From NCBI RefSeq assembly GCF_001412655.1, contig NZ_CP012996.1:2356001-2420000 (forward strand): a DNA stretch of 64,000 nt, given 5' to 3'. Origin of the DNA: Pedobacter sp. PACM 27299 (lineage in GTDB: Bacteria; Bacteroidota; Bacteroidia; Sphingobacteriales; Sphingobacteriaceae). Made by a program: the position numbers and the translations under genes. Positions 292 through 30,046 of the stretch are shown here, one piece after another (the first letter of the stretch is position 1; every line of letters starts with the position of its first letter). The notes beneath the pieces were generated by a model, which did no database searches, was not told the DNA's origin, and worked only from the letters and a program-made list of their open reading frames with translations.

Positions 292-312
292 GATTGTATA
301 ATTTATACAATC
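292..312. repeat. Perfect 9-bp inverted repeat (operator or hairpin)
   Basis: GATTGTATA and TATACAATC are exact reverse complements separated by ATT. Flanking TGTAAA (upstream) and TTTACA (downstream) can extend the pairing across a short internal loop. No long T-run follows directly, so it fits a palindromic operator as well as the end of an upstream transcript. Confidence 0.5.
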
Positions 313-368
313 CATTTACAACTTTTACAATCGTAATGATTTCTCAAATATTATTGTCTAGCTTTAAT

Positions 369-417: not shown

Positions 418-507
418 TAAGATGAATAGATCCAGACAATAGGCTGAACAGTTTCTAAATGAGTGGGGGTGAGATTTCTTGGATGTTTTAATTCAAAATC
501 AGCTGCT

Positions 508-527
508 GTAACTGATGTAGCGAAGCT
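508..527 (+). promoter_or_regulatory. ops-like element, copy 1 (array leader)
   Basis: The 20-mer GTAACTGATGTAGCGAAGCT differs at one base from a copy just upstream of the upxY gene (26909-26890, minus strand). It contains GTAGCG, also central to the E. coli ops element (GGCGGTAGCGTG) that recruits the NusG paralog RfaH, and can form a small TAGC-GAA-GCTA hairpin extending to 528. It lies 139 bases before the first gene of the plus-strand array, in the same orientation as transcription. Function as an UpxY loading or pause site is inference. Confidence 0.5.
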
Positions 528-666
528 ATAAGTGCCCCTGATGATTTGAATTCCACATTAAACTGTATTAACATCAAACGATTACCTCATCAATTTTTGT
601 GATGCTTTCTTGCCAGCATCAATTCCAAAATGATATTCTGATTCATTCATTATTTAAACCATCAAC

Positions 667-1959
667 ATGCTAGATTCGCGTACTAAAATTGGTATTATCG
701 GCCTCGGATATGTGGGGCTTCCCTTGGCAGTGGAATTCGCTAAGCAATATAAAGTATTGGGTTTCGATATAAATGAAGAGCGCATTTCCGAACTCAAGTC
801 AGGATATGATCATACACTTGAAATAGATACTGATTTATTGAATCAGGTGCTGACCAATACCTGTACTTCTGAAAAGGGCTTATTCTGTACTAATGACGCT
901 GAACTTCTAAAAAATTGTACCATTTTTATTGTTACCGTACCTACACCGGTAGATAAGAATAATCGCCCTAATCTGATGCCTTTAATTAATGCAAGTATCA
1001 CTGTCGGCGGCGTTCTTAAAGCAGGGGATATCGTTATTTATGAATCAACAGTTTATCCCGGCGTTACAGAAGATGAATGTGTACCGGTGCTGGCTAAAAT
1101 CTCTGGCCTTAAGTTTAATATTGATTTTTATGCAGGCTACTCTCCAGAACGGATTAATCCTGGCGACAAAAAGCATACAGTAGCAAATATTCTTAAAATA
1201 ACTTCAGGTTCCACCCCTGAAATTGCAGAAATTGTGGACCAATTGTATAAATCGATCATTACAGCAGGCACTCATAAGGCTTCCTGTATTAAGGTTGCTG
1301 AAGCGGCTAAAATTATTGAAAATGCACAGCGTGATATTAATATTGCTTTTGTGAATGAATTGGCTATGATTTTTAATCGCTTAGGCATTAATACAAATGA
1401 AGTATTAGATGCTGCCAGCACCAAATGGAACTTTTTAAATTTCAGACCAGGTCTAGTTGGGGGGCATTGCATTGGTGTAGATCCTTATTACCTGGCGCAG
1501 AAAGCTCAGGAAGTAGGATATCATCCAGAAATTATCTTAGCTGGAAGAAGGGTAAATGATGGTATGGGCGCTTACGTAGCCGATCAGCTGGTGAAACAAA
1601 TGATTCAAAAAGATACCCATATTGTTGGTGCAAAAGTGCTGGTATTGGGCTTCACATTTAAAGAGAACTGTCCGGATGTAAGAAATACTAAAGTTATTGA
1701 CATCATCAACAGGTTAAAAGAATATAATGTAGAAGTAACTGTTCATGATCCATGGGCCAATGTGGTGCATGCAAAACATGAATATGGTATTATATGTGAA
1801 AATGGGGAGTCTAAAACCAGAAAATACGATGGGATACTAGTTGCGGTCGCCCATCAGGAGTTTAAAAGTATTGAGTTGGGTAGATTATGTAAAAAGAATA
1901 CAGTGGTATATGATATTAAATCATTGCTCCCTAATGCATCAGTTGATTTCCGATTATAA
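667..1959 (+). CDS. Nucleotide-sugar dehydrogenase (WbpO/TviB type)
   Basis: Predicted cytosolic NAD-dependent 6-dehydrogenase that oxidises a UDP-hexose(amine) to the uronic acid for polysaccharide assembly. The 430-residue protein has the usual family length. It opens with the Rossmann motif GLGYVGLP (residues 12-19) and carries the active-site block [11 protein letters not shown] with the nucleophilic Cys268, followed by the C-terminal UDP-binding domain ([15 protein letters not shown]). The overall pattern is closest to the Vi-antigen TviB/VipA and WbpO group, acting on UDP-GlcNAc or UDP-GalNAc rather than UDP-Glc; the exact sugar is inference. ATG at 667 puts the NAD motif at the expected N-terminal position. 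It is the first gene of the array and the flippase begins five bases after its stop. Confidence 0.9.
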
Positions 1960-1964
1960 AGGTA

Positions 1965-3413
1965 ATGGATCTACAGGGGAAAACAGTTTATGGTGTGCTT
2001 TGGTCAGTCGGACAGGAGCTAAGCTCAAAATTCATAAGCTTTTTGATCACTGTAATTCTTGCTAGAATCCTTTCTCCTGCAGAATTTGGTTTGATTGCAA
2101 TGCTCTCTATTTTTATCGTAATCGGTAACTCCCTATTGGATGGTGGACTAACCTCCTCCTTAATTAGAACCACAGAAGTCACGCAAAAAGATTGCTCTAC
2201 CGTCTTTTATTTTAACTTGATAGGCAGTGTATTGGTATATGGAATTTTGTTTTTATCCGCTCCTTTTATAGCCAGATTTTATGAACAGCCAATACTCAGT
2301 AATGTCGTTCGGGTATATGGAATCTCATTAATCATAAATGCCTTTTTTGGAATCCAGCAAACACTGCTGGTGAAGGAGATGAGGTTCAAAACAATGACTA
2401 TGATTCAGATACCATCAGTAATAGGTGGTGGAATAGTAGGCGTTTTTTTAGCTAAAATGGGATATGGAGCCTGGAGTTTAGTGTGGATGAGTCTCGTTAC
2501 TTCATTAATATCTACGATACTCCATTGGTATTGTTCTCCCTGGCGACCAGTAATGATATTTGATTCGGCCAGCTTTAAAAGCCATTTTCACTATGGCTAT
2601 AAACTTACTTTATCTAGCATGATTGATAAGTTGTATCAGAATATCTATACCATCATTATAGGTAAATTCTATATGCCGGCCCAATTGGGTTTTTATTCAA
2701 GAGCCGATTCTATTAGTCAGCTGCCAATAGGTATCATCTCCTCAGCCGTAAATAAAGTCACTTTTCCAATGTTTGTAAACCTATCACACGACAATGAGCA
2801 GTTGGTATATGTGTATCGGAAAGTAATGCTGCAGGTGTTATTCTGGATGGCACCGACTTTAATTGCCCTCTGTGTGGTGGCTGAACCCTTATTTCGATTA
2901 ATGCTGACTGATAAATGGCTTCCGGCCGTCCCATATTTTCAGATTTTATGCATCGCAGGGATCACTTATCCAATACATGCTTACAACTTAAATATTTTAA
3001 AGGTAAAAGGTCAAACTCATTTATTTTTGAGACTGGAAATGATAAAAAAGGTGTTTTGTGTAATCGGTATTCTTTGTGTATTTCCCTTTGGAATTTACGG
3101 TCTGCTTTACTTTCAATTGTTTTTCAGTTTTTTCGGCTTGTACATCAATTCAATTTATACAGTCAGGTTTATCAACTATCCTTTTGTAAAGCAAATAGTA
3201 GATATTCTACCCACTTTGTTCATTTCAGGGCTTGTAGGCATCACTTGCTTTTTTTTCGATAAGCTCCTTGTTGCTGCAAATTTTAATGATCTATTCAGAA
3301 TTATAGTTTTAGGCCTCAGTTATTTTGTGGGTTACTTTGCTGCAAGTTACCTGTTTAAATTATCTGCAATTATTGATTTTAAACAACTCATCTTAAAAAG
3401 ATTATATCAGTAA
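1965..3413 (+). CDS. Polysaccharide flippase, Wzx/MOP superfamily
   Basis: Integral membrane protein of 482 residues expected to flip undecaprenyl-linked repeat units across the inner membrane. The N-terminus reads as a WzxC-type flippase (short amphipathic start, then FISFLITVILARILSPAEFG), with about twelve to fourteen hydrophobic segments spread over the whole length, as in the MOP superfamily. It begins five bases after the dehydrogenase stop, so the two are almost certainly co-transcribed. A polymerase and an initiating transferase in the same array make a complete Wzx/Wzy pathway. Family assignment is firm; substrate is unknown. Confidence 0.88.
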   Translation: MDLQGKTVYGVLWSVGQELSSKFISFLITVILARILSPAEFGLIAMLSIFIVIGNSLLDGGLTSSLIRTTEVTQKDCSTVFYFNLIGSVLVYGILFLSAPFIARFYEQPILSNVVRVYGISLIINAFFGIQQTLLVKEMRFKTMTMIQIPSVIGGGIVGVFLAKMGYGAWSLVWMSLVTSLISTILHWYCSPWRPVMIFDSASFKSHFHYGYKLTLSSMIDKLYQNIYTIIIGKFYMPAQLGFYSRADSISQLPIGIISSAVNKVTFPMFVNLSHDNEQLVYVYRKVMLQVLFWMAPTLIALCVVAEPLFRLMLTDKWLPAVPYFQILCIAGITYPIHAYNLNILKVKGQTHLFLRLEMIKKVFCVIGILCVFPFGIYGLLYFQLFFSFFGLYINSIYTVRFINYPFVKQIVDILPTLFISGLVGITCFFFDKLLVAANFNDLFRIIVLGLSYFVGYFAASYLFKLSAIIDFKQLILKRLYQ

Positions 3414-11364: not shown

Positions 11365-13208
11365 ATGTGCGGAATATTTGGAACCTTAAATTTTAATTCC
11401 AGTAAAGACCAACAACATATTTACCGTGATTTGTTTCATCGTGGGCCAGATGAGCAACGTCATGTTCAACAAGATAATCTGGAGTTATACCATACCAGAC
11501 TGGCCATACAGGATCTGACTGACCAAGGTCAGCAGCCGATGAAATATGAAGAGCTCACTATTGTCTTTAATGGAGAGATTTATAATCACCTGGACATCAG
11601 AAAAAAATATGGCTTGCAGAGTTCTTCAAGCTCTGATACGAAAACCATTTTGATGTTATACAAAGTCATTGGAATGAAAATGTTAGAGGAGTTCGATGGC
11701 ATGTTTGCCTTTGCTTTATATGATTCCCTCAAAAAAAGCTTTACCTCGTCAGAGATCGTGCAGGAAAGAAACCGTTGTATGTATATGTTAAAGGACTGCA
11801 ATGCGTTTTTTCTTCCGAATTGAATATCCTATCCAAAGTGGTGCGTCCCGAAATAGATGAGGCGGCTATAGCGGATTACCTATATCTGGGCTATCATTAC
11901 AGAAAAGCCACCCCTTATCAAGGGGTATCAGAACTGGAGAATGGCTGTTATCTGGAGATAGACACCCATACCAATCTCAGTAAAAAGGTGAAATGGTTTG
12001 ATATGGCTATTTACTATCAGCAAGAGAATAAATTAAGGTATCCTGATGCGATTGAAATGTTAGACCATCACCTTCATTTGGCGATAAAAAGAAGAATTGA
12101 TAGCTCAGATCTGGATGTCGGGGCATTTTTAAGCGGTGGGATTGACAGCGGATTGGTGACCTCAATCGCAGCCGAACATACCACAAATTTAAAGACGTTT
12201 ACCGTTAAGGTAGAAGGAAGCTATGATGAATCTCATCTGGCGCAAAAAGTAGCTCAAAAATATTCAACCAACCATACGGTGGTGGACATCACTTTTTCAG
12301 ATTTACAAAAAGACATAGAAAAAATACTCATCAACCATGGTGAACCGAATTGTGATAATTCGGCAATTCCTAGTTACTATGTTGCAAAAGAAGCAAAAAA
12401 ACACATCACAGTCGTGTTAAACGGCGACGGAGCCGATGAATTGTTTGGTGGTTACCGCCGTTATGTGCCTTTCAAACATTTTGATTTTTTTAATTCAGGT
12501 AAGGTAAGTACTACTGCTGCTAAAGTGCTGACCAGCATTCTGCCAATTGCAAATGAAAAACAAAGTAGTTATAACTATGTGTATCGTTTATTAAAGTTAG
12601 CTGGTTATGATGATTTGCTTAAGGTATATAATTCGGCATCCTGTGATCTGTTTGTTGGCTTTGAAGATCAGTTTATTCGTAAACCATTGATGAAAGAGCT
12701 CACAGCAGACCTGATGACCATCAATCAAATGCCAATTACCTCGTTAAAAAAGATCATATTTACGGATTTTCAATCCATGCTGTTCAGCCGATTGCTTCCT
12801 AAAATGGATATTGCTACAATGGCCCATTCCCTGGAGGGAAGAAGCCCATTTCTATCCAAAGAAATATTGGAATTCGCCCCAGGCTTACAAGATCATTTTA
12901 AAATAGATAAGTTCAAAACTAAGCCGATTTTAAGAGACCTCGCGATCAGGTACCTGCCTGAAGCGCTGATCAACCAACCTAAACGTGGGTTTGAAATACC
13001 CCTGAAATCCTGGGTTAATGGCGAGTTGAAGGCCATTATAAACGATTACCTGCTAGCTCCAGACGCGCTTTACGGGAAAATCATTAAGCAAAGCTTTATT
13101 GAAGATTTACTGCAGTCAAAAGTTAAAATCTCCGATGAAAGAAGGGCGAAAATTCTCTTCTGCATTTTCGGACTGGAAGTTTGGTTCAAAGGCTGTTATC
13201 GCCAATAG
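11365..13208 (+). pseudogene. asnB-like: Asparagine synthase-like amidotransferase, split by a -1 frameshift
   Basis: Two overlapping frames make one protein: 11365-11823 encodes the N-terminal glutaminase half (Cys2 in MCGIFG, HRGPDEQ, FNGEIYNH) and 11775-13208 encodes the synthetase half (PP-loop SGGIDSG, GDGADELFGGYRR, EGRSPFL). The frame is lost at seven adenines (11731-11737). Reading one base back there restores K-L-Y-L-V-R-D-R-A-G-K-K-P-L-Y, which is exactly the expected family sequence, and gives about 614 residues, normal for AsnB homologs in polysaccharide loci. A single missing A in an A8 run explains it. It may be a true mutation, a sequencing homopolymer error, or a gene decoded by slippage. 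In such loci the enzyme likely amidates a sugar acid or similar substrate rather than making free asparagine. Confidence 0.9.
11731..11738 (+). other. A7G slippery run at the asnB-like frameshift
   Basis: AAAAAAAG begins on a codon boundary of the upstream frame (AAA AAA AGC). Slipping back one base gives AAA AAA AAG and enters the downstream frame. This contains A-AAA-AAG, the same run used for -1 frameshifting in E. coli dnaX, although its phase here differs from the classic X-XXY-YYZ arrangement. RNA polymerase stuttering that adds one A would have the same effect. Confidence 0.6.
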
Positions 13209-14635: not shown

Positions 14636-16036
14636 ATGGAAAGATTGAAAGAAAAATTAAAAAAAGTGTGTGTGTTAAGTTTATTGTTATCGACAATTTT
14701 AACGTTTAGTCAATGTAAAAAAGAGGGGATGAGACCTGCGGACTCTGGCAACCCCCTCAGTAATGAAACCCCTGGAGTGTTAGATTCTCAATTGGTGAGT
14801 GGATCGGCTTCAGGAACAATGCAACTGAATGTCGCTACCGGGACTTCTGATGGAGGTTTTTCTTTAAGGATTCCAATGGATGCTAAACTAACCAGCGATT
14901 CTAATGAGAAACCAACAGCTTCTACAGTTAGAGTCTTTGAAAATGGAGTAGAAATTGGCCCAGGTCACTCTTCACATGATGACATCAGAACTCAGGGAAA
15001 AGGCCGTTTCAGCCACAAATCAAATTTCCTGTTTTTATCAGCCTCTGATAACTCAGATCCAAAAACAAACGGTAAAAAGTATACCTATACTGTAAACGGA
15101 CAGGGTGGCGCTACTTTAGACCCAACTCCGCCAACTACGGAGCAGCCTACCGCCCCAGTGGCTGGGAATGAACCTATTGGTTATGCTTCAGTGAATGGGA
15201 AAACTACAGGTGGTGCCGGCGGACAAACCCTTACGGTAACTACTTTGGATGCACTTAAAAGCGCTTTAAGTTCTAAATCACCTTTGATTATCCAGGTGTC
15301 TGGAACGATTACAGGTACAGGTTTGCTTCAGGTAGAATCTAACAAAACGATTTTGGGCCTTAGCGGATCTAAGCTAATTGGTGCGGGTCTGTTGATCTAC
15401 GGAAAGAACAATGTAATTGTTAGAAATATGACGATTAGTAAAGTACGTACCTATTCTAATATTATCATTAAAGAAGGTGCTCATCACGTATGGGTAGACC
15501 ATTGCGATCTTGGATCAGAGCTGGTCAGCGACTGGGATTATTATGATGGATTATTGGATGTTGGAACAGGTGCTGATTATGTGACTTTATCATGGAATAA
15601 ATTACATGACAATCACAAAGCAATGCTGATCGGTTTTAGTTATACCCGTCCAGATGATGCCAATCACCTAAAAGTAACCGTACACCATAACTTGTTCTCT
15701 AACATTTCAGAACGTACTCCTGATGTGAGATACGGAAATGTTCATGTATTCAATAACTATATGTTGAATGCAGGGTATGTTGGATCACTAATGGGTGCAA
15801 CTGTAAGAGTAGAAAATAACTATTTCAAAGGTTCTTCTCTTCCAATCAGAACTGAAATTAGCCCGGTTGCAGGTGTAATCAGTGGTTTAAGTACCAACAT
15901 TTTTGAAAGCTCTGGAAGCAACAAAATTACTTCGGCTCCTTCAACATGGGTACCAACTTATGAGTATAAATCAGCGCTGGATGCAGCAGCAAACGTACCA
16001 GCTATTTTAACTAAAAGTGCTGGTGCAACTTTATAA
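14636..16036 (+). CDS. Secreted lipoprotein of pectate lyase family PL1
   Basis: Lipoprotein of 466 residues: signal peptide VCVLSLLLSTILTFSQC with the lipobox cysteine followed by KKEG, a pattern fitting surface export in Bacteroidota. Residues about 60-155 form a Ser/Thr-rich domain of unknown type. After a proline/threonine linker, the PL1 right-handed beta-helix carries HHVWVDHCDLGS, YYDGLLDVGTGADYVTLSWN, LHDNHKAMLIG and HHNLFSNISERTPDVRYGN, containing the expected Ca-binding acidic residues and catalytic arginine region. Being inside an EPS locus that makes uronic acids, it may trim or release the locus's own polymer, or degrade plant pectin; both are inference. A strong terminator follows at 16065. 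Confidence 0.85.
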   Translation: MERLKEKLKKVCVLSLLLSTILTFSQCKKEGMRPADSGNPLSNETPGVLDSQLVSGSASGTMQLNVATGTSDGGFSLRIPMDAKLTSDSNEKPTASTVRVFENGVEIGPGHSSHDDIRTQGKGRFSHKSNFLFLSASDNSDPKTNGKKYTYTVNGQGGATLDPTPPTTEQPTAPVAGNEPIGYASVNGKTTGGAGGQTLTVTTLDALKSALSSKSPLIIQVSGTITGTGLLQVESNKTILGLSGSKLIGAGLLIYGKNNVIVRNMTISKVRTYSNIIIKEGAHHVWVDHCDLGSELVSDWDYYDGLLDVGTGADYVTLSWNKLHDNHKAMLIGFSYTRPDDANHLKVTVHHNLFSNISERTPDVRYGNVHVFNNYMLNAGYVGSLMGATVRVENNYFKGSSLPIRTEISPVAGVISGLSTNIFESSGSNKITSAPSTWVPTYEYKSALDAAANVPAILTKSAGATL

Positions 16037-23672: not shown

Positions 23673-24932
23673 TTAACTGCGGTATGATTTGATAAGTGAC
23701 AATTCCTGATGTTTGTTATGCAGCATTTGTGATTGAACAGATTTAATCACGGCATCGATAATGTAGTCTGTATCTTCATCGGTTAATGTAGGGTAGATAG
23801 GTAAGGAAATTTCACAGGCATATTGTTTATAGCTATTTGGATAATTCGCAATATTATATCCCGTTTTCTTAAAATAAGTTAACATTGGCATTGGGATGAA
23901 ATGAACGTTGACAATAACTCCAAAAGCCACGATATCTTCAATGATACGATCTCTTTGAGCCTCTGTGATATGTTTAAGGCGCATCGGGAAGATGTGATAG
24001 GAAGATTCCCTGGAGTAGTCTTTTAATGTTGGTGGAATAAACCACTCGTAATTACTTAAAATGCTGCAGTATTTTTCTGCTATTTTTCTACGCTCAGGCA
24101 ACAGCAAACGTTTGTATTGTTTGATTTGTGCTAAGCCTATCGCCGCACAGATATCAGGCATATTAATTTTTAATCCCTTATAGAGAATGTCATACTTCCA
24201 GTTGGCACCTTTCGATTTCGCATAAGCATCTTTGTTCTGGCCGTTTAATGAAAATATTTTGAGGAACTTATATTCTTCATTATGGTCGAAATTACCGGGC
24301 AAGTTTAAGCAGGCACAGCCTCCTTCAGCAGTGGTAATATTTTTTACAGCATGAAAAGAAAAGATAGTAACGTCGCTGCTTACCGCTGCGGAATGGCCCA
24401 TATAAGTAGAACCAATGGAATGTGCGGCGTCTGCAATCAGGAGGATTCTGCCAAGTTTTCGCTGTTCTTCTGAATTCGCTGTAAATAAGCTTCTGATCCT
24501 GGCGCTCCTGATTAATGATTTAATGGTGTTGTAATCACAGGGTAAACCAGCAATGTCGACCGCAATAATTGCCTTAGTCCTAGAGGTAATGGCCATTTTT
24601 ATGCGTTGAGGGTCTATGGTCAGGTCGTCAGCAATATCTACCATCACCGGTGTAGCGCCGCAATGTAAAACACATAGAGCGGTTGCACAATAAGAGTAGG
24701 CAGGTATAATGACTTCATCGCCTTCTTTTACACCGAACCATTTTAACATCATTACTGCACCAGAAGTCCAGGAGTTTACGCAGACGGCAGCTTTAGATCT
24801 GGTTAAGCGCATCACCTCCATCTCCAGTGCCATCACCTTTGGTCCGGAGGTAATCCAGCCAGACTTGAGTGTATCCATTACTTCATTAATTACATTTTGG
24901 TCAATAAACGGTGGTGAGAATGAAATGTTCAT
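23673..24932 (-). CDS. DegT/DnrJ/EryC1/StrS aminotransferase, copy 1
   Basis: PLP-dependent sugar aminotransferase of 419 residues. The PLP lysine lies in FHAVKNITTAEGG, the phosphate-binding region in VCVNSWTSGAVMML, and ADAAHSIGS is the conserved aspartate motif. The length and the N-terminal FIDQNVINEVMDTLKSGWITSGP are standard. It probably aminates the 4-keto-6-deoxy sugar made by the CapD/WbpM-type enzyme at 21019. A roughly 25-residue insert around IRSARIRSLFTANSEEQRKLG is larger than in most relatives. It is the last gene of the minus-strand operon, 88 bases after the other aminotransferase. Confidence 0.88.
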   Translation of the reverse strand: MNISFSPPFIDQNVINEVMDTLKSGWITSGPKVMALEMEVMRLTRSKAAVCVNSWTSGAVMMLKWFGVKEGDEVIIPAYSYCATALCVLHCGATPVMVDIADDLTIDPQRIKMAITSRTKAIIAVDIAGLPCDYNTIKSLIRSARIRSLFTANSEEQRKLGRILLIADAAHSIGSTYMGHSAAVSSDVTIFSFHAVKNITTAEGGCACLNLPGNFDHNEEYKFLKIFSLNGQNKDAYAKSKGANWKYDILYKGLKINMPDICAAIGLAQIKQYKRLLLPERRKIAEKYCSILSNYEWFIPPTLKDYSRESSYHIFPMRLKHITEAQRDRIIEDIVAFGVIVNVHFIPMPMLTYFKKTGYNIANYPNSYKQYACEISLPIYPTLTDEDTDYIIDAVIKSVQSQMLHNKHQELSLIKSYRS

Positions 24933-25020
24933 GATTTTAGGTTTAAGTTGATGAAAGCTTATGATTGGTTTGTTTAGTTTAATGAAAGGTTTAATAGAGG
25001 AGCAGAGCTACCCAATAGTA

Positions 25021-26190
25021 TCACTTGATCGCCCTTAAATCATTAATTTCTGTGGCGATTTTGTTGGTCACCTGTACGCCAAAATTATCTGTAGCAACTG
25101 GTACTGCATCGGCATAATTCTGAGTTCTTAAAATGACCCTGCAAATCATATCCAGGTCAGGAAGTGTTAAAGTATGATAAAGCGGCAGACAAACAATCCT
25201 GCGGGAAATATCCTCGCAAACAGGCATGGACACTGGATCCACATAGGGTAGGGTAGAGAGTGAGGGTGAAAAATACCTTCTGCAGTAGACTTTGGAAAGT
25301 TCGAGTTTTTCCATACACCGATGCCTTAATTGTTCCGTCTCAAATAATACCGGGAAATAGGCGTAATTATAGTCTTTAGCTTTATTTAACTTTGGAAAAC
25401 GACCTTTGATTTTCCCTAATTGCTGGTAATAATGAAGAGACAGGAGTTTTCTTCTTTCGAGGATCTCATCCACATACTTCAGATTACACAAGCCCATAGC
25501 CGCATGAAATTCGCAATTTTTGCCGTTTACGCCCAATCCTGCAAAAGTATCAGGACTGCTATGGCCAAAATTCCGGATGTACTGCATTTTATTCAGGAGT
25601 TCTGGATCACGCGTGAAAACAGCTCCTCCCTCGGTCGTATGGAATAGCTTGGTGGCATGGAAACTGGTCGCCGTGATGTCTCCATAATCAAATACAGACC
25701 TGTTTTTGTACTGCGTCCCAAAACAATGTGCTGCGTCATAAATCACCTTTAATCCATGTCGGTCTGCTATCGCCTGAATGGCATCAATGTCGCATGGATT
25801 GCCATAAACATGGGTGGCCAGAATGGCAGAAGTGCGAGGGGTAATCGCAGCCTCAATTTTAGTCGGATCTATGTTAAAAGTCTCACTGTCGATGTCTACA
25901 TAAACTGGCTTGCAGCCCTCCCAGACTATACTGCTGGTGGTGGCAACATAAGAGAAAGGGGTAGTGATAATCTCCCCCTTTAGCTCCAAGGCTCTAATGG
26001 CTAACTGCAAAGCAAAAGTGCCATTACAGACGAACAGCATGTGGTTTACATTCAGGTATTGTTTAAGTTTTAATTCAAGGTCATTTAGCAATGGTCCATT
26101 ATTGGTGAGCCATTGACGTTCCCAGATGCTGTCAATATATTCTTTAAATTCTTCTGCTTTTGGGAGAAATGGTTTAGTTACAGGAATCAT
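25021..26190 (-). CDS. DegT/DnrJ/EryC1/StrS aminotransferase, copy 2
   Basis: PLP-dependent sugar aminotransferase of 389 residues. PLP lysine in FHATKLFHTTEGG; aspartate motif YDAAHCFGT; N-terminus MIPVTKPFLPKAEEFKEYI. It is well diverged from copy 1, so the two likely act on different keto-sugars or at different positions; WecE-like and VioA-like members have similar form, but I cannot choose between them. About 110 bases separate it from upxY upstream on the minus strand, and it is expected to be under antitermination control if UpxY acts on its own transcript. Confidence 0.87.
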   Translation of the reverse strand: MIPVTKPFLPKAEEFKEYIDSIWERQWLTNNGPLLNDLELKLKQYLNVNHMLFVCNGTFALQLAIRALELKGEIITTPFSYVATTSSIVWEGCKPVYVDIDSETFNIDPTKIEAAITPRTSAILATHVYGNPCDIDAIQAIADRHGLKVIYDAAHCFGTQYKNRSVFDYGDITATSFHATKLFHTTEGGAVFTRDPELLNKMQYIRNFGHSSPDTFAGLGVNGKNCEFHAAMGLCNLKYVDEILERRKLLSLHYYQQLGKIKGRFPKLNKAKDYNYAYFPVLFETEQLRHRCMEKLELSKVYCRRYFSPSLSTLPYVDPVSMPVCEDISRRIVCLPLYHTLTLPDLDMICRVILRTQNYADAVPVATDNFGVQVTNKIATEINDLRAIK

Positions 26191-26301: not shown

Positions 26302-26835
26302 TTATATGGCTGTATTTAGCATGACATCAGCGATGGGAACACTACTCAGCACAGCACAGTTCAAATGGTCTAAAACCATCAGGACGTACTTGCCCTGGAC
26401 CTTAATCACGGTTCCTTCCTGATTGTAAAAGATGCCGTGTTTAATACGGATGCGGTCACCATGATTTATATCTTGTGAATTGATGATCTCACAAGCCACA
26501 TCTCTATTCATCAGTTCCTCAATTTTTTCAATCACACTATCCCTGATCACCGCAGGTTTCCCCATATAATATATGAAGTTTAAAACGCCTAGGGTTTGTC
26601 TTACTTTGTATGCTTCACGCTCATTTACCCAAACAAATACATAACCGCTAAACAAGGGTAAATCAACAATTTTCTTTCGGTCTGCCCATTGATTTGTGAC
26701 GCTGCGAATTGGACAGTAGGATTTAATGTCCTGCTGTTTTAATAACCGATCCACTTTTTTTTCCCATCTCGGACGGGTATAAACTACAAGCCAGTGCCTG
26801 CTCCAGTTGCTACTGGAACCAAATTGATTTTCCAT
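26302..26835 (-). CDS. upxY: UpxY-family transcription antiterminator (NusG paralog)
   Basis: Specialised NusG protein of about 177 residues. The N-terminal NGN domain reads HWLVVYTRPRWEKKVDRLL, CPIRSVTNQWADRKKIVDLP and LFSGYVFVWV, and the C-terminal KOW domain has GDRIRIKHGIFYNQEGTVIK. In Bacteroides fragilis the UpxY proteins prevent premature termination in the leaders of their capsule operons. ATG at 26835 is chosen; a TTG at 26862 would add nine residues that are not typical. It lies between wzc and the aminotransferases. A 20-mer nearly identical to one in the leader of the plus-strand array occurs 54 bases before its ATG, so this protein is the natural candidate to act on both. Confidence 0.87.
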   Translation of the reverse strand: MENQFGSSSNWSRHWLVVYTRPRWEKKVDRLLKQQDIKSYCPIRSVTNQWADRKKIVDLPLFSGYVFVWVNEREAYKVRQTLGVLNFIYYMGKPAVIRDSVIEKIEELMNRDVACEIINSQDINHGDRIRIKHGIFYNQEGTVIKVQGKYVLMVLDHLNCAVLSSVPIADVMLNTAI

Positions 26836-26889
26836 ATAGAGAATGTTTAATTGTGAAGGCAATAATTAGTATGGATATAAAAAGGGCAG

Positions 26890-26909
26890 AGCTTCGCTAC
26901 ATCACTTAC
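26890..26909 (-). promoter_or_regulatory. ops-like element, copy 2 (upxY leader)
   Basis: On the minus strand it reads GTAAGTGATGTAGCGAAGCT, 19 of 20 bases identical to copy 1 at 508-527. It lies in the 117-base gap between the wzc stop and the upxY ATG, in the sense orientation of transcription. TGCCCTT follows three bases further and TGCCCCT follows copy 1 at a slightly larger distance. A role as an antiterminator or pause element is inference. Confidence 0.5.
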
Positions 26910-26952
26910 ATGATTGTGGTGTGGAAACACTTAGATTAGGGGTAATTATGTA

Positions 26953-29268
26953 TTAGTTTTTTGAGACCTGATAACCTAAACCGTAACCATATCCAAATCC
27001 TCCATATCCATAGGTATTGCTGTTCTCAATTTTTGCATCATTAAATACGACCATAGGATTGGTCAGTTTTTTATAATACAGGATATCTTTTAATATGTTC
27101 AATTGTAATTTATCAGTATAATTGTAACGGATCAGATAAATGCTAAGGTCGGTGTAGGCAGATAAGCTAAAAGCATCAGCAACCTGTCCAACAGGCGCCG
27201 TATCAATGATGACATAGTCGAACCGGCTTTTCAATTCTTCTACCAATTTTCCGATTTTTGGATGCATCATCAGCTCCGCAGGATTGGTGGTAATAGGACC
27301 ACAATCCACGACAATTAAATCATGGTATTTTCTTGAATTCATGAGCAAATCATCGATACTCACATCGGGATTTAATAGGTAATCGGTGATGCCAATTTTT
27401 GAATTTAAATGAAGCTTCTGCAGCAACTGAGGCTCGCGCATATCAAACTCCAATAATACCACCCGTTTATTTACGGAAGCTAAAGTGAGGCCTAGATTGA
27501 TAGAGAAGAATGTTTTGCCTTCGGATTTCATACAGGAAGTAATCAGCATGACCTGATCAGGCATCCCATTGTTCATGAAGTTAAGGTTACTTCTAATGTA
27601 CCTGAATAATTCAGTAATGGTAGACCTGCTACTGTGGTCTATCATAGCTGCTTCATTTTTGCTGACATGGTTTAATACGCCTAAAACAGGTACGCCAGTC
27701 AGCAGTTGGATGTCTTTTACGTCTCGTACTTTATTATTGAATAATGACCTGCCGTAGATAAAGGCAGCAGGAATAAGCAGGCCGGCAAAGCTGGCACACA
27801 GGTAAATCAATTCCTTTTTTGGAGTTACTGGTACACTATTATACGCTGGTTTATCGATGATTTGAGAAGTTGGGACTGTGGCGGATAAGGAAAGCGTAGT
27901 TTCTTCTCTTTTTTGTAATAAATACCTATATAATCCTGATTTTACGCTTTGCTCTCTGGTTCTTTCCAATAGCCCACGCTCTACTGCAGGTACCGCACGA
28001 ACTTTAGAGTTAAATCTTGAGCTCATGGCCTGCTGATTGTTTCTTTCAATTTGTAAGCCTCTCTTGATGTTCTGCAGGTTTTCTTGAATGTTCGATTTTA
28101 AACTCACTAATTGTGCAGTCAGGTTCTGTACTAAAGGATTGCTTTCCTCAGAACTCCTCAGCATTTTTGCCCTTTCCTGCTGGGTCGCATTATACTTCGC
28201 TGTTAAGTCATTTAAAGTCGCATTATTGATGTTTAATGCGCTAGGGACAACATTTAGGTTGTTGTTTTGAAGGTATTTTTCCAGGGAGGACAGGACGTTA
28301 AGCTGGGTGTTTGTAGAAGATAGCATTTGTCCGTATTCTCCGGATTTATTTACATTGACAACTGCATCAGCATTGACATCGGTCACCATGTTTTCCTGTT
28401 TGTAATTTTCTACATCATGCTCTACACCAGTTAAATCCAGACTGAGTGCATTCAGCCTTTTGTCAATAAATTTGATGGTATTCAGGGCAATCAGGTTTTT
28501 CCTAATTACATCTTCTTCGTTGTATTTTCTGATGAGTACCGTTAGAATATCAAGGCCCCGTTGGGGGATATTGTCCGTTAAACTGATGACAATTGTGTTG
28601 GCATCTTTTACAACGGGCAGTACAATCAGGCCTGTTAAGCTGTAGGATTCTGCCATGCGATGCAGGTTTTTAAATTTCAAAACCACTGGATCGGTATAGT
28701 TTTTAAAGGCAGGGCCTTTGCTGACGATAATTTTATAGCCTGATTGCTGTACCACACTGTTGTAAGGCAATGTATACTTGTTGTTATTGTCGGTAAGGAC
28801 ATACTCCTGATCACTATAAGGACTTATTGTCGGTTTTTTAAGGTACCCACTTGCATTTACGCCAAGAACACTCACTTTTATCGGTACATTTTTTCCGTAT
28901 AGCTCTTTGTCTTTTAAGGTGCCTTTAATGAAATAAGCAGTTTCTAAGGATAGTGATTTCAGCGTTTTATAAATCAGATCCCTGGAGCGTAAAACTTCCA
29001 TTTCATTGTCTGCTTTGCGATCGCTGCGGAACATATTCAGGTCGCTAAATGCACTTTCTTTAACCTGTCCTTCGCCTTTTTGATCATCCTGAACCATTAA
29101 AGTACTGCTTACTTTATACCTTGGACTGAGTGTTTGCAGGTAGAGAAAACTAGCCCCCAGACCTATTAAAAATGCCAGGATAAAAGCGTACCAGTATTTT
29201 AAGTACTGCTGTATGTTTTCCCTTAAATTCTCCAGCGCAGAAGGGCTTTGATAAACGTTTGAGTTCAT
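26953..29268 (-). CDS. Polysaccharide co-polymerase and tyrosine autokinase (Wzc type)
   Basis: Inner-membrane protein of 771 residues controlling chain length and export. It has a Wzz domain with TM1 near residues 26-46, a long periplasmic coiled-coil/GNVR region, TM2 near residue 500, then a cytosolic BY-kinase. The Walker A is SCMKSEGKTFFS, Walker A' is LLEFDMREPQ (family usually has an Asp-rich form like LLIDADLRRP), and Walker B is YVIIDTAPVG. The C-terminus is glycine/tyrosine-rich (GYGGFGYGYGLGYQ), the expected autophosphorylation cluster. It follows the wza-like gene by 25 bases. It is expected to work with the OM export protein and the flippase/polymerase made by the plus-strand array. 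Confidence 0.92.
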   Translation of the reverse strand: MNSNVYQSPSALENLRENIQQYLKYWYAFILAFLIGLGASFLYLQTLSPRYKVSSTLMVQDDQKGEGQVKESAFSDLNMFRSDRKADNEMEVLRSRDLIYKTLKSLSLETAYFIKGTLKDKELYGKNVPIKVSVLGVNASGYLKKPTISPYSDQEYVLTDNNNKYTLPYNSVVQQSGYKIIVSKGPAFKNYTDPVVLKFKNLHRMAESYSLTGLIVLPVVKDANTIVISLTDNIPQRGLDILTVLIRKYNEEDVIRKNLIALNTIKFIDKRLNALSLDLTGVEHDVENYKQENMVTDVNADAVVNVNKSGEYGQMLSSTNTQLNVLSSLEKYLQNNNLNVVPSALNINNATLNDLTAKYNATQQERAKMLRSSEESNPLVQNLTAQLVSLKSNIQENLQNIKRGLQIERNNQQAMSSRFNSKVRAVPAVERGLLERTREQSVKSGLYRYLLQKREETTLSLSATVPTSQIIDKPAYNSVPVTPKKELIYLCASFAGLLIPAAFIYGRSLFNNKVRDVKDIQLLTGVPVLGVLNHVSKNEAAMIDHSSRSTITELFRYIRSNLNFMNNGMPDQVMLITSCMKSEGKTFFSINLGLTLASVNKRVVLLEFDMREPQLLQKLHLNSKIGITDYLLNPDVSIDDLLMNSRKYHDLIVVDCGPITTNPAELMMHPKIGKLVEELKSRFDYVIIDTAPVGQVADAFSLSAYTDLSIYLIRYNYTDKLQLNILKDILYYKKLTNPMVVFNDAKIENSNTYGYGGFGYGYGLGYQVSKN

Positions 29269-29293: not shown

Positions 29294-30046
29294 TTATCTG
29301 AGTATAACGGTTAGTAGTACAGCTGCTGCTGAAACGCAGGTAGATATGATCGGAAGTAAGGTGTTGTTTGAATTGACCTGTCTTTCTTTTGATTTGTCGG
29401 GCTCGACATAAACGATGTCATTCTGTTTTAAATGGAAATATGGGGAGTTGTAGCTGTCCTTATCATTCAGGTTTAGCCTGGTCATGTTGCGCACGCCGTC
29501 TTCTTCCCGAATAACAAGTACGTTTTCCCGTTTGCCAAAAACGGTCATGTCACCGGCCATCCCCAAGGCTTCTAATAAATTAATTTGCTCACCGGGAACG
29601 TTTAATGAAGCCGGATGATTTACCTCTCCAATCACTGTAATTTTGAAATTGACAAGTTGGAGATCCACATAAGGATCCTTGATCTGTTTCCTTAATACCT
29701 GGGTAATTAAAGCCTGTGCTTCTTCTAAACTTAAGCCTTCGACTTTTACTTCGCCAATCAGTGGTAGATTGATGTTTCCAGCATTGTTAATCCTGAACCC
29801 CCCTTTACTGTTTATAGGGGTATTGCTATTGTTGGCATTTGCACTTGCAAATAATACATTGTACTCTGTATTTAAGCTGGTTAGAGAGATACTCAGCTGG
29901 TCGTTCTTTTGCAGCTTTAACTGTGCTGCACTTTGAATAATATCATTGGAGCCCTTAGGAAGGTTGCTGAAATAGACTAGATTTCTTTGTGGAGCACAAC
30001 TGAAAAAAATCAGTGAAATGAACAAAGTAAACGTTAAATTTTTCAT
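29294..30046 (-). CDS. Polysaccharide export outer-membrane lipoprotein (Wza family)
   Basis: Lipoprotein of 250 residues: signal peptide LFISLIFFSC, then APQRN without the C-K-K-D/E signature, so it is probably retained facing the periplasm. The polysaccharide biosynthesis/export domain contains LQKNDQLSISLTSLNTEYN and GGFRINNAGNINLPLIGEVK, followed by an SLBB domain (ITVIGEVNHPASLNVPGEQINLLEALGMAGD). The C-terminus has a hydrophobic helix LLPIISTCVSAAAVLLTVIL, as in Bacteroidota members that insert this end in the outer membrane. It is the first gene of the minus-strand operon. Confidence 0.9.
   Translation of the reverse strand: MKNLTFTLFISLIFFSCAPQRNLVYFSNLPKGSNDIIQSAAQLKLQKNDQLSISLTSLNTEYNVLFASANANNSNTPINSKGGFRINNAGNINLPLIGEVKVEGLSLEEAQALITQVLRKQIKDPYVDLQLVNFKITVIGEVNHPASLNVPGEQINLLEALGMAGDMTVFGKRENVLVIREEDGVRNMTRLNLNDKDSYNSPYFHLKQNDIVYVEPDKSKERQVNSNNTLLPIISTCVSAAAVLLTVILR

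Follow-up and report, generated by a model that had tools for sequence, protein, structure and literature searches.

On comparison of their sequences, two near-identical 20-mers in a 64-kb stretch of the Pedobacter sp. PACM 27299 genome (hereafter, the window) are cases of one conserved bipartite element, roughly ATGTRASYGA-N3-RGCGNAGCY-N-T-R. We consider it quite likely that this element recruits the NusG paralog UpxY to paused RNA polymerase by way of a mini-hairpin in the non-template DNA, in cis on the operon that encodes UpxY and in trans on a distant EPS array. The comparisons show the conservation of the element, its strand, its position, its link to UpxY, and its pairing, and from them we infer a transcription start, pausing, UpxY binding, and an effect on expression.

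The first-pass annotation had placed the 20-mers at 508 to 527 (plus strand) and 26909 to 26890 (minus strand), outside coding sequence and ahead of genes in the sense direction. All of this holds: they are identical at 19 of 20 bases, the single difference being C or G at position 5, and by the window's gene coordinates both are intergenic and sense oriented to the next gene. The first ends 139 nt ahead of the ATG at 667, the start of the first EPS-array gene, and the second ends 42 nt ahead of the upxY ATG at 26847. No third copy with up to three mismatches occurs in the 64-kb window, and 100 shuffles also gave none. When the search was extended to the rest of the genome (one contig, 6.15 Mb), the full element was found at the two window sites only, a result shared by the wider patterns used in the 20-mer, family/phylum, and 23-mer scans. 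On its own, the 10-mer GTAGCGAAGC is no commoner in the genome than chance would give, with nine matches and nine in the reversed control, and only its two window matches carry the full element. An Rfam search of window positions 1 to 30500 returned two matches, both far below the gathering score and away from the element.

The EPS array (667 to 23465, plus strand) runs in one direction and, by Pfam-type profile matches to the part of its genes scanned, encodes a sugar dehydrogenase, a flippase, glycosyltransferases, a sugar transferase, a protein with a weak Wzy_C match, AsnB parts, an epimerase, and others. Within it, an AsnB-like protein is split into overlapping frames at 11365 to 11823 (GATase part) and 11775 to 13208 (synthase part), which suggests a frameshift or sequencing error, and a pectate-lyase-domain gene lies at 14636 to 16036. 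The gene at 26302 to 26847 (minus strand), which had been called upxY, does encode a UpxY-family NusG paralog, with an NF033644 score of 130.7 bits against a curated cut-off of 100. On the same strand, it is preceded by a wza-like polysaccharide export gene (29294 to 30046; profile match) and a wzc-like chain-length/tyrosine kinase gene (26953 to 29268), whose stop falls 43 nt before the element, and followed by two DegT-family aminotransferase genes (23673 to 26190). Since the element lies between wzc and upxY, UpxY would promote its own operon; since the other copy lies in the leader of a 23-kb EPS array, about 135 nt from its predicted start, the same UpxY would drive that array in trans.

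We described the anatomy of the element from 227 instances, with positions 0, 12, and 20 to 23 left free in the scan. From its upstream hairpin arm to the predicted +1, the element spans 498 to 530 (plus strand) in the array leader, as placed by pattern search and leader alignment, and 26887 to 26914 (minus strand) in the upxY leader. Its upstream part, H1, is a predicted hairpin whose arms covary across instances. In the array leader (498 to 516), ATCAG (498 to 502) and CTGAT (512 to 516) enclose the loop CTGCTGTAA; in the upxY leader, ATCAT (26914 to 26910) faces GTGAT (26905 to 26901) with one T-G pair. The base that differs between the window 20-mers sits in this stem, and the opposite arm differs too. 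Anchored stems have at least four Watson-Crick pairs in 127 of 215 instances, against a mean of 63.5 and a maximum of 78 when arms were swapped between box classes, and at least five pairs in 76, against a mean of 23.2 and a maximum of 35. Exact arms occur as CTGA-TCAG in 44/120, CTTA-TAAG in 4/9, CCGA-TCGG in 4/5, and GCGA-TCGC in 2/5, while H1 is weak in the type of the window's upxY copy, where the GTGA box has its exact arm TCAC in 7 of 76. An earlier test that left this stem unanchored gave a weak signal, with 58 of 215 instances reaching p ≤ 0.05 and a median p of 0.225 (0.575 in the GTAAGTGA class), and the evidence for H1 is taken from the anchored, swapped-arm test instead.

The right half of the element can form the AGC-GAA-GCT hairpin proposed by the first-pass annotation, here termed H2, at 519 to 527 in the array copy and at 26898 to 26890 in the upxY-leader copy. 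Its outer positions, 12 and 20, are pairable in 225 of 227 instances (G-T 111, A-T 73, G-C 41, not pairable 2); the patterns that retrieved many of these loci already required R at 12 and Y at 20. The loop is GAA in 221 instances and GGA in 6, with GTA seen once, at class level. Passages of PMC4686876 describe DNA mini-hairpins with a GNA or GNNA loop and two or more G-C pairs as extraordinarily stable and give a melting temperature of up to 78°C for GCGAAGC. Nearest-neighbor energies predict low DNA stability for H2, at -0.1 and -0.6 kcal/mol in the two copies and 0 for the G-T form, the commonest; standard energies of this kind do not reproduce the reported stability. Among the positions left free, T0 is present in 218/227, T22 in 219/227, and a purine at 23 in 210/227, giving a pause-like consensus G13...T22 R23. 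The conserved T22-purine looks like a pause, predicted with T at -1 and A at +1 in the array leader (529 to 530) and with T 26888 and G 26887 in the upxY leader.

In the mechanism that we favor, RNA polymerase would transcribe the element, the left half and the upstream arm would fold as H1, a hairpin in the nascent RNA that ends some 13 nt upstream of the 3′ end of the transcript, and polymerase would pause with T22 at -1; this register, and with it the placement of H1 behind the RNA:DNA hybrid, is predicted. Positions 12 to 20, exposed as non-template DNA, would fold into the GC-GNA-GC mini-hairpin H2, and at this site UpxY would bind the paused complex, perhaps also contacting the left box in its duplex form upstream, and remain bound as an anti-pausing, antitermination factor. 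UpxY of Bacteroides reportedly reads the non-template strand and the upstream duplex of paused polymerase, and nascent RNA hairpins are said to aid its recruitment; the bipartite element fits such a system well.

Alternatively, UpxY or a partner might read the element as nascent RNA, in the way reported for LoaP, and not as non-template DNA. We regard this as unlikely, on evidence that points both ways. In its favor, H1 covaries, the commonest outer pair of H2 is the G-T (G-U) wobble, sense orientation suits RNA as well as it suits non-template DNA, and for the array copy an RNA fold of -4.5 kcal/mol with an extended stem is predicted. There is also a precedent for a leader element of a NusG paralog in LoaP and the dfnA leader hairpin, described in a passage of PMC12691694. 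As a candidate LoaP-type RNA hairpin, H1 covaries but reaches four Watson-Crick pairs in only the 127 of 215 instances given above. Unlike in the LoaP case, however, the core hairpin would sit inside the RNA:DNA hybrid if polymerase pauses at T22. Furthermore, AGCGAAGCU alone is predicted to be unfolded as RNA, the upxY copy folds poorly, and the near restriction of the loop to GAA, GGA, and a single GTA is what stable DNA mini-hairpins show.

Across the genus, the pattern GTRASYGAKRNRGCGAAGCY, a 20-mer form of the element, was found at 108 places in 66 of 145 genomes, and the 23-mer GKRASYKANNNRGCGAAGCYNTR in 100 of 145, with reversed controls of 0 and 0/145. NF033644 matches above the cut-off occur in 118 genomes; the 23-mer is present in 100 of these 118 and in none of the remaining 27 (Fisher p ~1e-17; kinship ignored, as in the other counts). 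Among the 27, of which 6 are <90% complete, 25 have as their only match one at E ~1e-16 to 1e-18, which is probably core NusG, and 2 have none. The 18 genomes with UpxY and no 23-mer (G007, G013 to G017, G036, G043, G046, G049, G057, G096, G105, G113, G120, G124, G127, and G136) include one with the 20-mer form (G105) and two with near matches (G046 and G127, at L065 and L078). An exact 13-mer, searched first, gave 38 places in 26 of 145 genomes against 6 in the control and was abandoned as a probe, as it mixed leader copies with other matches; among the 30 places listed, 11 were leader copies, and T22 was present in all 11 versus 3 of the other 19.

Many copies at unrelated places, one of the outcomes that the first-pass annotation said would refute its proposal, were not found in the genus: no genome holds more than three copies of the 23-mer. 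This bears on the idea that the element is a functionless repeat or recombination remnant, for which the near identity of the two window copies could be cited. Given the low copy number, the repeatable positions, the empty reversed controls, and the fact that the two window leaders are not alike outside the element plus its upstream arm, we give this idea hardly any credence. It is also improbable, to our minds, that some other factor, such as housekeeping NusG/NusA or a duplex-binding regulator, uses the element as its pause or leader signal, with UpxY nearby because of shared EPS loci. Such a factor would suit the many copies in the phylum sample that have no UpxY in the fetched flanks and the fact that some copies precede non-polysaccharide genes, yet the element is absent from all 27 genomes of the genus that lack an above-cut-off UpxY, and its position tracks the UpxY clade.

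We examined this position in 30 loci and 80 regions drawn from the NF033644 matches listed, a sample in which three regions (L145 to L147) had been picked for a 13-mer match, not for UpxY. The sampled loci contain 117 UpxY reading frames, or 108 distinct proteins. In clade A, defined by at least 46.5% identity to the window's UpxY, the element is upstream and in sense orientation at 41 of 41 fetched UpxYs, one of which (G070) came in through the 13-mer, with none downstream and none antisense. In 40 of the 41, wzc lies on the upstream side, its stop 39 to 246 nt before the element, and 10 of the 41 have two copies of the element, 72 to 86 nt apart. All 38 named relatives (Pedobacter, Sphingobacterium, and Mucilaginibacter; UpxY identity 49 to 95%) have the element ahead of upxY. 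In clade B, it is downstream instead, exact and in sense orientation at 32 of 48 UpxYs, with none upstream or antisense; 15 of the other 16 have at least 19 of 21 positions downstream, for 47 of 48, leaving L041 without. The gene next after the element is asnB in 23 of 24 clade-B-type copies. Clade C, the remainder class (n = 19), has one exact match (at a B-like protein), three near matches, three sites with the right half only, two near matches on the opposite strand, and ten UpxYs with none. The three right-half sites (L094, L095, and L111) lie downstream of upxY and combine AGCGAAGCTTTA with a different left box, perhaps representing another UpxY specificity class. In some relatives (L187, L188, L190, and L366), the element lies opposite to the upxY strand and heads a divergent operon.

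In ten genomes (our own, G012, G030, G038, G059, G070, G098, G114, G125, and G128), whose UpxYs are at least 78% identical to the window's, the array copy precedes the orthologous dehydrogenase gene; the element itself led to these leaders, and finding it in them is not an independent count. Together with the 41 clade-A upxY genes, they bear out the conservation in orthologous leaders on which the original proposal depended. In nine of the ten, the array copy lies 26 to 28 kb from the upxY copy, while in G125 it is on a separate contig. Independent of this way of finding them, little is conserved in the eight array leaders that were aligned except a palindrome block, a promoter-like block, and AATCAG plus the element. 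The palindrome ATTGTATAATTTATACAAT (293 to 311, plus strand) stands just ahead of the promoter-like block and is a possible operator. In the promoter-like block, TAGCTTTA (359 to 366, plus strand) resembles the -7 box of the promoter consensus, and the array element would begin about 135 nt after the corresponding predicted transcription start. Just before the start of the window, a short opposite-strand frame begins like an HTH protein.

The first-pass annotation had likened the 20-mers to ops, the RfaH recruitment element, through the GTAGCG that both contain. In part this stands: both window copies share 7 of 12 ops bases in their best register, and GCG is constant across the family. However, ops itself (GGCGGTAGCGTG) is not matched by either window copy, and GTA (positions 10 to 12) varies family-wide. 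With positions 9 to 12 varying across instances, we set GTAGCG aside as the ops-equivalent core. We would instead place this core at positions 12 to 23 (RGCGAAGCYNTR), because these are the bases that the family conserves and because the hairpin and the pause-like bases coincide there. In the 12-to-23 register, the window copies agree with ops at only 4 and 5 of 12 bases, and the composite form GGCGAAGCTGTG has 7 of 12.

Like ops, the element is a short sense-strand sequence in the leaders of long operons (as predicted from sequence), with a NusG paralog as its proposed partner and candidate targets in trans. In this register, GCG at 13 to 15 and T22 coincide with ops, which according to PMC7819879, in the passage concerned, matches the consensus pause. 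Element C14 can pair with G18, as ops C3 pairs with G8, and G13 can pair with C19 too; for ops in solution, a passage of PMC5995543 supports C3:G8 only and regards the other stem pair seen in the crystal as a likely packing artifact. We read the ops stretch GCGGTAGC as a GNNA-type mini-hairpin, so that the GC-GNA-GC core would be the physical counterpart of the enterobacterial GC-GGTA-GC stretch. Unlike ops, the element has a GNA loop in place of GGTA, no counterpart of the flipped T6, a conserved left box, and an upstream hairpin, and it often lies inside the upxY operon. The protein differs as well: among 41 clade-A UpxYs, RfaH K10 is R in 39 and Q24 is kept in 37, whereas H20, R23, and R73 are not conserved, so base reading by UpxY must differ from that by RfaH. 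One further possibility is that RfaH sites and UpxY sites depend on the same physical device, namely a stable mini-hairpin that DNA forms within the transcription bubble.

Passages of PMC7593976 report that B. fragilis has its own UpxY for each capsule locus and call the recruitment mode of NusG paralogs encoded in their own operons unknown in 2020. Here, one upxY gene occurs together with two sites 26 kb apart. With a site and its register defined, and a pause base and a non-template hairpin predicted, UpxY recruitment becomes directly testable in environmental Bacteroidota, and candidate UpxY targets, including trans targets like the array, would become predictable from sequence. We found no description of the element's sequence in the open-access literature searched, and its novelty relative to the Bacteroides UpxY site is provisional (Saba et al. 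2024, cited for upstream-duplex contacts in a passage of PMC12691694).

Beyond the genus, the family scan found the element in 59 of 301 genomes and 8 of 25 genera (our own included), with 1 control match. A looser pattern gave 49 places in 39 of 395 genomes of the phylum; as the control gave 15 matches, about a third of these places could be chance. At class level (apparently Bacteroidia), the right half, [AG]GCGNAGC[CT]NT[AG], lies in sense orientation at 31 of 82 distinct UpxYs and antisense at 2, in a set that includes our own family and some loci with short flanks, and with no left box required. Loop-scrambled controls at the same UpxYs gave 0/0, 0/4, and 2/0 (sense/antisense), and GNNA-loop sites numbered 5 sense and 2 antisense. 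The two antisense matches look like real, divergent elements. Although absent from the search pattern, the left box GTGACT or GGGACTGA recurs at the class-level sites. The other 51 UpxYs have no sense match; five of the six that were tabulated for family f11 are among them. As a route to Bacteroides capsule loci, UpxZ (PF06603) was uninformative, with no match in 247 genomes and equally none in 14 control genomes.

Whether Bacteroidota have an ops of their own, a phylum-wide bipartite element with a GC-GNA-GC mini-hairpin core at a pause that marks long operons for UpxY-type antitermination (exopolysaccharide, and perhaps tail-sheath, Cas6, and FHA), is a proposition that we hold to be as plausible as its negation. 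If it is true, a genome sequence would be enough to predict whole regulons. From a list of 58 downstream genes, 32 were searched against Pfam, with UpxYs and repeats left out, and ten were examined singly. Asparagine synthase and sugar dehydrogenase were each matched five times, polysaccharide export four times, and epimerase/dehydratase three times; single matches were to glycosyltransferase, glycosyl hydrolase 88, FHA, Cas6, and others. The Cas6 gene follows a single copy (L370:2437, plus strand) and the FHA-domain gene, with T6SS_FHA_C just below the cut-off, follows another (L255:1520, minus strand), both in genomes outside the class; given the phylum-scan control, some such singletons may be chance. 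At four loci, the element lies ahead of phage-tail-sheath-like genes, which may belong to contractile-injection operons, and the regulon of the factor may therefore reach beyond polysaccharides. Two copies on the minus strand at L364 precede a gene at 1638 to 3245 with a Pfam Phage_sheath_1C match, and L194 shows the same placement. At L250 (1501, plus strand), the gene has no Pfam match, and at L252 (1501, plus strand), it is sheath-like by its first residues only.
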